Origin: Candidatus Thiosymbion ectosymbiont of Catanema sp. Cochon2018
GTDB lineage: Bacteria; Pseudomonadota; Gammaproteobacteria; Chromatiales; Chromatiaceae
Length of the DNA: 64,000 nucleotides
NCBI GenBank assembly: GCA_011392765.1
Contig: WYCW01000001.1
Span: 986,888 to 1,050,887, forward strand
Reading direction: 5' to 3'
Shown here: positions 55,530-56,225 of the stretch, one piece after another
Position numbering within the stretch: position 1 is the first letter of the stretch
Layout: every line of letters starts with the position of its first letter
Program-made: the position numbers and the translations under genes
The notes under the pieces: model-generated
Database searches by the model: none
The model's input: the letters and a program-made list of their open reading frames with translations, nothing else
Told to the model about the DNA's origin: nothing

Positions 55530-56225
55530 AGTAACGATTCAAAAATAAGTAAAACATCTTCGACGAGCATGCTCGGCGCGCAATCCATACGCTCGCGGCA
55601 CCTCGATCCGCTCCCACTCGCAGCGTTCGGTTACCGGCAGGCGCCGTAGTCGTTTCTCTCGGTCGAGGACACGGCGGGCCATGTTCGATTCACCACAGAG
55701 AACACAGAGAGCACAGAGATGAGAAATCACGCAATGACGCCAAGAGAAAGAACCTTTGCGCCTTGGCATCCTGGTGCCTGAGCGTTTCTTTCTCTGTGTT
55801 CTCTGTGCCCTCTGTGGTGAATAAGTAAGAGCCTCTCCGGCTAAAGATGGAGGCTCTTTATGGATTCCGGACTGCTCGCGATCATGGAAGGCACCACCGG
55901 ACGTTTTGGAGTGCGGCGGCAATCTTGACTCCCGCAGCGACGGAAACCCGCGGTATCTGTGTAACCAAGGTGCCGCCATGGGCTACCTGCCCGCCGCCGC
56001 TTTGGATTTGGCGATGGATCCGTTCCCAACCAAGGTCTTGCGGCCAGGGGAAAGCGCCGTCGCCGCGGCGCGTAGGGAACCCGACACCCAGGTTTCCGGC
56101 AAACGCCGCTGGGCTTCCCCGTTACTGAGGTTCGATGTGGCCGCGCCGCTTTGCCGGCGCACTCCAAAACAGTCCGGAATCCATAAAGAGCCAAGATGGA
56201 TAACTTGTTAGTGAACCGTTCCTTA
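55530..56225 (-). repeat. Repeat P, inverted copy, with a 341-bp insertion
   Basis: Read on the minus strand it matches 21541-21902: GGAACGGTTCACTAAC at 56225, the MARRVLDREKRLRR stretch, ACACAGAG arms, and AATCGTTAC at 55530. The match is broken at 55852-56192 by an unrelated element. The two copies are 34 kb apart in opposite orientation. Confidence 0.8.
55852..56192. mobile_element. Family D 341-bp element with 23-bp inverted repeats and 8-bp target duplication
   Basis: Terminal repeats of 23 bp (GGCTCTTTATGGATTCC and six further bases) are perfect inverted copies at 55852-55874 and 56170-56192. AAGATGGA flanks both sides (55844-55851, 56193-56200) and is single in the uninterrupted copy of repeat P. 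A second inverted pair lies inside (GTTTTGGAGTGCG near 55902 and its complement near 56160), offset by about 27 bases. No transposase. The 8-bp duplication fits IS1595-type and a few other families; an IS1595 remnant is at 5150. Confidence 0.9.

Follow-up and report, generated by a model that had tools for sequence, protein, structure and literature searches.

The window, a stretch of 64,000 nucleotides from the genome of the Candidatus Thiosymbion ectosymbiont of Catanema sp. (here G000, 5.0 Mb), contains a non-coding element of 341 bp whose borders can be set to the base (55852–56192). Perfect terminal inverted repeats of 23 bp (GGCTCTTTATGGATTCCGGACTG, 23/23 positions) bound the element, and an 8-bp target duplication, AAGATGGA, flanks it on both sides (Table 1). 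The insertion interrupts repeat P, a second and itself MITE-like element. An uninterrupted copy of repeat P elsewhere in the window preserves the empty target, which reads TCCATCTT, the minus-strand equivalent of the duplication. Nine more copies of repeat P in the same genome are uninterrupted at the target, which differs by one base in one of the nine. The 341-bp element is thus short, lacks a transposase gene, carries inverted repeats, has a target duplication with a known empty site and occurs in dispersed copies, as expected of a MITE. A preliminary description, made from the letters of the window, had already read it as a MITE with perfect 23-bp repeats and an 8-bp duplication inside another repeat, and its coordinates proved exact.

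Table 1. Features of the 341-bp element and of its host repeat P (window positions).
Feature	Position	Strand	Remark
Uninterrupted repeat P copy	21540–21902	+	empty target site at 21562–21569
Host repeat P, larger part	55531–55851	-	MITE-like; TTA duplication at 55528–55530 and 56223–56225
Left copy of target site duplication, AAGATGGA	55844–55851		empty site known
Left terminal inverted repeat, GGCTCTTTATGGATTCCGGACTG	55852–55874	+	127 genome matches at ≤3 mismatches
28 extra bases between left terminal repeat and inner repeat	55875–55902	+	flanked by CCGGAC direct repeats
Inner inverted repeat, left arm	55903–55922	+	95% complementary to 56151–56170
Family A interior (341-bp MITE family), non-coding	55923–56150		
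Inner inverted repeat, right arm	56151–56170	-	adjoins right terminal repeat directly
Right terminal inverted repeat	56170–56192	-	
Right copy of target site duplication, AAGATGGA	56193–56200		
Host repeat P, remaining end beyond insertion	56201–56222	-	

Element structure and host repeat

Inside the terminal repeats lies a second, offset pair of inverted repeats. The preliminary description had noted this offset and suggested an insertion into a longer ancestral terminal repeat. The offset is borne out, as the two inner arms pair at 95% and the extra block of 28 bases occurs on the left side only. The proposed insertion is one of two equally good readings: two CCGGAC direct repeats enclose the block, so it may as plausibly have been lost by slippage on the right as inserted on the left. 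Almost all examined members of the 341-bp family have the same left-only offset, and the asymmetry is therefore older than the amplification of the family. The family A interior showed no blastn similarity to IS1595 elements and no similarity to transposases; scattered tblastx matches, which might have indicated an interior derived from an insertion sequence (IS), were judged spurious, and we rejected that origin.

Repeat P is represented by about 10 near-full copies. Its ends, GGAACGGTTCACTAACAAGTT and GTAACGATTCAAAAATAAGT, form imperfect inverted repeats of 28 bp (21/28 positions by visual count). A matching 3-bp duplication (TAA, TTA, CAA, CTA or TAG, read by eye) flanks most complete copies, among them both copies in the window. 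No mover of repeat P was identified.

Copies, interiors and distribution of the ends

Searching the whole genome of the symbiont for the 23-bp end at ≤3 mismatches returned 127 matches, 64 forward and 63 reverse. The reversed pattern, used as a control over the same genome and at the same threshold, returned 0. Together with a shuffle expectation of 0.00 for the 23-mer in the window, this excludes chance. The forward and reverse matches correspond to about 60 elements with these ends. Among the fetched loci, 41 end pairs were resolved. Family A, to which the window copy belongs, accounts for both ends in 23/41 pairs, mostly 320–348 bp in length; family B for 6/41 (175–177 bp); and family C for another 6/41 (239 bp or more, in some cases with insertions). 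The resolved pairs outside these three families comprise recombined and interrupted elements and remnants. Behind the same 23-bp ends there are therefore at least three unrelated interiors. The flanks match at ≥7/8 positions in 18/41 resolved pairs, and the duplications of all 18 have A or T at their first and eighth positions. The copies nearest to the window copy are 99% and 97% identical to it, suggesting that the amplification was fairly recent. A common variant of the termini differs by one base from those of the window (CCAGACTG instead of CCGGACTG), and GGCTCTTTATGGATTCC(G/A)GACTG spans both forms.

The ends occur in two of three congeners (129 matches in G002, 17 in G003, against 127 in G000); none were detected in the third, G001. 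In 51 more distant relatives, the search yielded two matches with 3 mismatches in a single genome, which is at noise level, and no other MITE ends, and none were found in the viral contigs searched. A literature search returned no study of MITEs in these symbionts. Several draft contigs of G002 (L129–L133) terminate ~50 bases into a MITE end, indicating that the repeats fragment short-read assemblies of these symbionts.

Two copies in the own genome, L077 (G000:C1:1982251-1984042) and L078 (G000:C1:2013015-2014876), are interrupted by an IS110-type element, assigned from its protein sequence by recognition rather than by profile, of which the two loci have 1340 bp in common at 99.85%. In L077, this element is apparently enclosed in turn by another small inverted repeat, which begins AGAGGCTGTCTAAAAAC, forming a nest of three. 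We considered these 1.8-kb copies as autonomous elements and rejected the idea, as the IS110-type element had inserted into the MITE.

Compared with bacterial MITEs in general, the window family has the usual short length (341 bp), non-coding interior, perfect terminal repeats, target duplication and dozens of copies. Its ends are, in addition, common to a full insertion sequence (below). It differs in that the family A interior is not recognisably IS-derived and in that at least three unrelated interiors stand behind the same ends. The phenomenon is of a known kind.

Insertion sequences with matching ends

IS1595-family elements of ~1.0–1.1 kb from many phyla, here called the mover clade, end in GGCTC(A/T)(T/A)TATGGATTCC.G and variants of it, make A/T-ended 8-bp duplications, and match the MITE end at up to 21/23 positions per arm. 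The best, from Lamprocystis purpurea, has arms matching at 20/23 and 21/23 (pair 41/46). The MITE ends are similar, never identical, to the ends of any intact IS found. Among the best 80 of 222 relatives in named genomes, 49 loci had an end pair scoring ≥30/46 in summed similarity to the MITE end, compared with 0/30 ISL3 loci. In Methylobacter luteus and a Latescibacteria genome, the mover elements form multi-copy, near-identical sets with perfect 8-bp A/T-ended duplications.

The comparison with ISL3 bears on the main rival candidate for the mover. ISL3 elements are generally known to start with GGCTCTT and to make 8-bp duplications, so that their first bases and duplication length resemble those of the MITE. 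Against this, none of the 30 ISL3 loci from the class had a matching end pair, and the best arm (15/23) was at background. The own genome contains a single ISL3-domain match, which reads as a fusion with no such ends nearby. After searching this genome and 185 genomes of the class and comparing ends, we rejected ISL3 as the mover and regard movement by an ISL3-family transposase as very improbable. A full IS of another family with the same termini, which would have spoken against an IS1595-type mover, was thus sought among ISL3 elements and not found. The sole ISL3-domain match (L088, G000:C10:107994-108356) lies inside a 425-aa frame whose N-terminal part resembles a fatty-acid desaturase.

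The IS1595 family is characterized by 8-bp duplications and a transposase with a zinc-ribbon N terminus (PMC8101967, summarising Siguier, Gagnevin and Chandler 2009). The MITE has in common with it terminal repeats beginning GG and 8-bp A/T-rich duplications. Full elements with these ends encode a zinc ribbon and an IS1595-type DDE transposase, whereas the window element is without a transposase gene. The transposase of the Lamprocystis element scored above the cut-off for PF12760, PF12762 and NF033547, and a copy from Thiosymbion scored above it for PF12760. Close plasmid matches of the mover clade are annotated 'IS1595 family transposase' only. Judged by its domains, ends and duplication length, the mover clade belongs to the IS1595 family.

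Two loci within the genus connect the MITE ends to this transposase. In G003, the Thiosymbion ectosymbiont of Robbea hypermnestra, the TAA stop of an IS1595 transposase gene directly precedes a MITE terminus, CAGTCTGGAATCCATAAAGAGCC, which is the common variant with CCAGACTG replacing CCGGACTG. Further along the contig (C808, JAIZWN010000808.1) is another left end belonging to the same IS. This transposase copy is damaged, with a stop in the second frame besides a frame change. The other locus, in the own genome, is an internally deleted remnant of a mover-type IS: 469 bp long, it is bounded by perfect MITE ends and retains 88 bp at 81% identity to the G003 transposase gene (E = 2e-17).

The preliminary description had named an IS1595-type transposase as the likely mover, pointing to a dead fragment in the window, and had proposed comparing the 23-bp ends with those of full IS1595 elements. 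That comparison was positive, and the family is upheld by end matches of up to 21/23 per arm, the 8-bp duplications and the G003 gene abutting a terminus. The fragment itself belongs elsewhere. At ~5154–5502, it is a decayed IS1595 transposase whose DES-FG and INGIESFW motifs mark it as IS1016-type; that type includes elements such as ISApl4 (PMC12561309), lies within the same family and makes 8-bp duplications as well. Several full IS1595 copies in the own genome end in GGGTCTAGATAACTTTAG, unlike the MITE ends, and no site similar to those ends occurs in any of them; hence, the fragment was not the mover. Its group as a whole could be thought to move the element, as the resident transposases are numerous (16 matches) and the ends of several copies also begin GG. 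Yet no resident locus has a MITE-end site at ≤6 mismatches, the terminal sequence differs, and the best paired score is at background level. Resident IS1595 copies were therefore rejected on their end sequences, and their involvement is even less probable than that of ISL3.

A profile search of the four genomes of the genus found no intact member of the mover clade, so movement by this clade is something we infer from the ends, the duplication length and the two loci above. Taken together, they argue strongly that the element is a non-autonomous MITE which very probably owes its insertion to a DDE transposase of the IS1595 family, from the clade ending in GGCTC(A/T)(T/A)TATGGATTCC.G. By analogy with what is known of DDE transposases, the zinc-ribbon enzyme, provided in trans, would bind the 23-bp terminal repeats and excise or copy the element. 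Strand transfer into the target, here a copy of the MITE-like repeat P, would occur with an 8-bp stagger, and repair would yield the AAGATGGA duplication.

The lack of an intact mover in the genus could also be taken to mean that the repeats are domesticated dispersed repeats, for instance transcript hairpins, kept by selection. The strand of the element does fold far better than shuffles (z = -7.1). However, terminal and inner inverted repeats give such a fold automatically, and it is no separate evidence of function. Scattered copies with target duplications, differing interiors and absence from one congener fit a mobile repeat, and domestication is as improbable as movement by the resident IS1595 copies. 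For MITEs moved by the mover clade, the failure to find an intact helper makes them look stranded. The helper appears to be missing or dead in the own genome now, which suggests that the elements are stranded at present or depend on a helper outside these assemblies.

A two-frame transposase in the mover clade

According to PMC8101967, members of the IS1595 family usually encode their transposase in a single gene. Full mover-clade elements differ in this respect, as most carry two overlapping frames instead of one gene; the MITE is not concerned. In 24 such elements with defined ends, which are related and so do not represent 24 independent events, the frames are joined by a -1 shift in 18 and a +1 shift in 3 (21/24 shifted), and are continuous in 3. 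The first frame encodes the zinc ribbon and the first catalytic region, and the second the rest; examples include L191, L195, L215, L232, L248 and L258. The junction always falls just after AGHKGxPxAV, commonly at a run of A7–A9, including CAA AAA AAG. Recently active multi-copy elements are shifted as well (-1 in Latescibacteria, +1 in Methylobacter luteus), and simple decay is therefore not the explanation. By their domains, ends and duplication length, the two-frame elements are still placed in the IS1595 family.

We hypothesize that programmed -1 frameshifting, commonly on A AAA AAG, at a fixed point just after AGHKGxPxAV, produces the transposase of this clade, a reading that we consider rather probable. 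The sister family IS1 uses programmed -1 frameshifting. A literature search, with the 2009 founding paper outside its scope, found no paper on frameshifting in IS1595. If frameshifting holds, MITEs with these ends would depend on a rare fusion protein. The conserved two-frame transposase bears on the relation of IS1595 to IS1.

For the Thiosymbion symbionts, these results assign a mover family to a prominent small repeat of their genomes, at the level of confidence given above. A single set of ends has spread three or more unrelated interiors to about 60 copies, with the autonomous element dead or absent, which makes the repeats a clean natural case of stranded MITEs.
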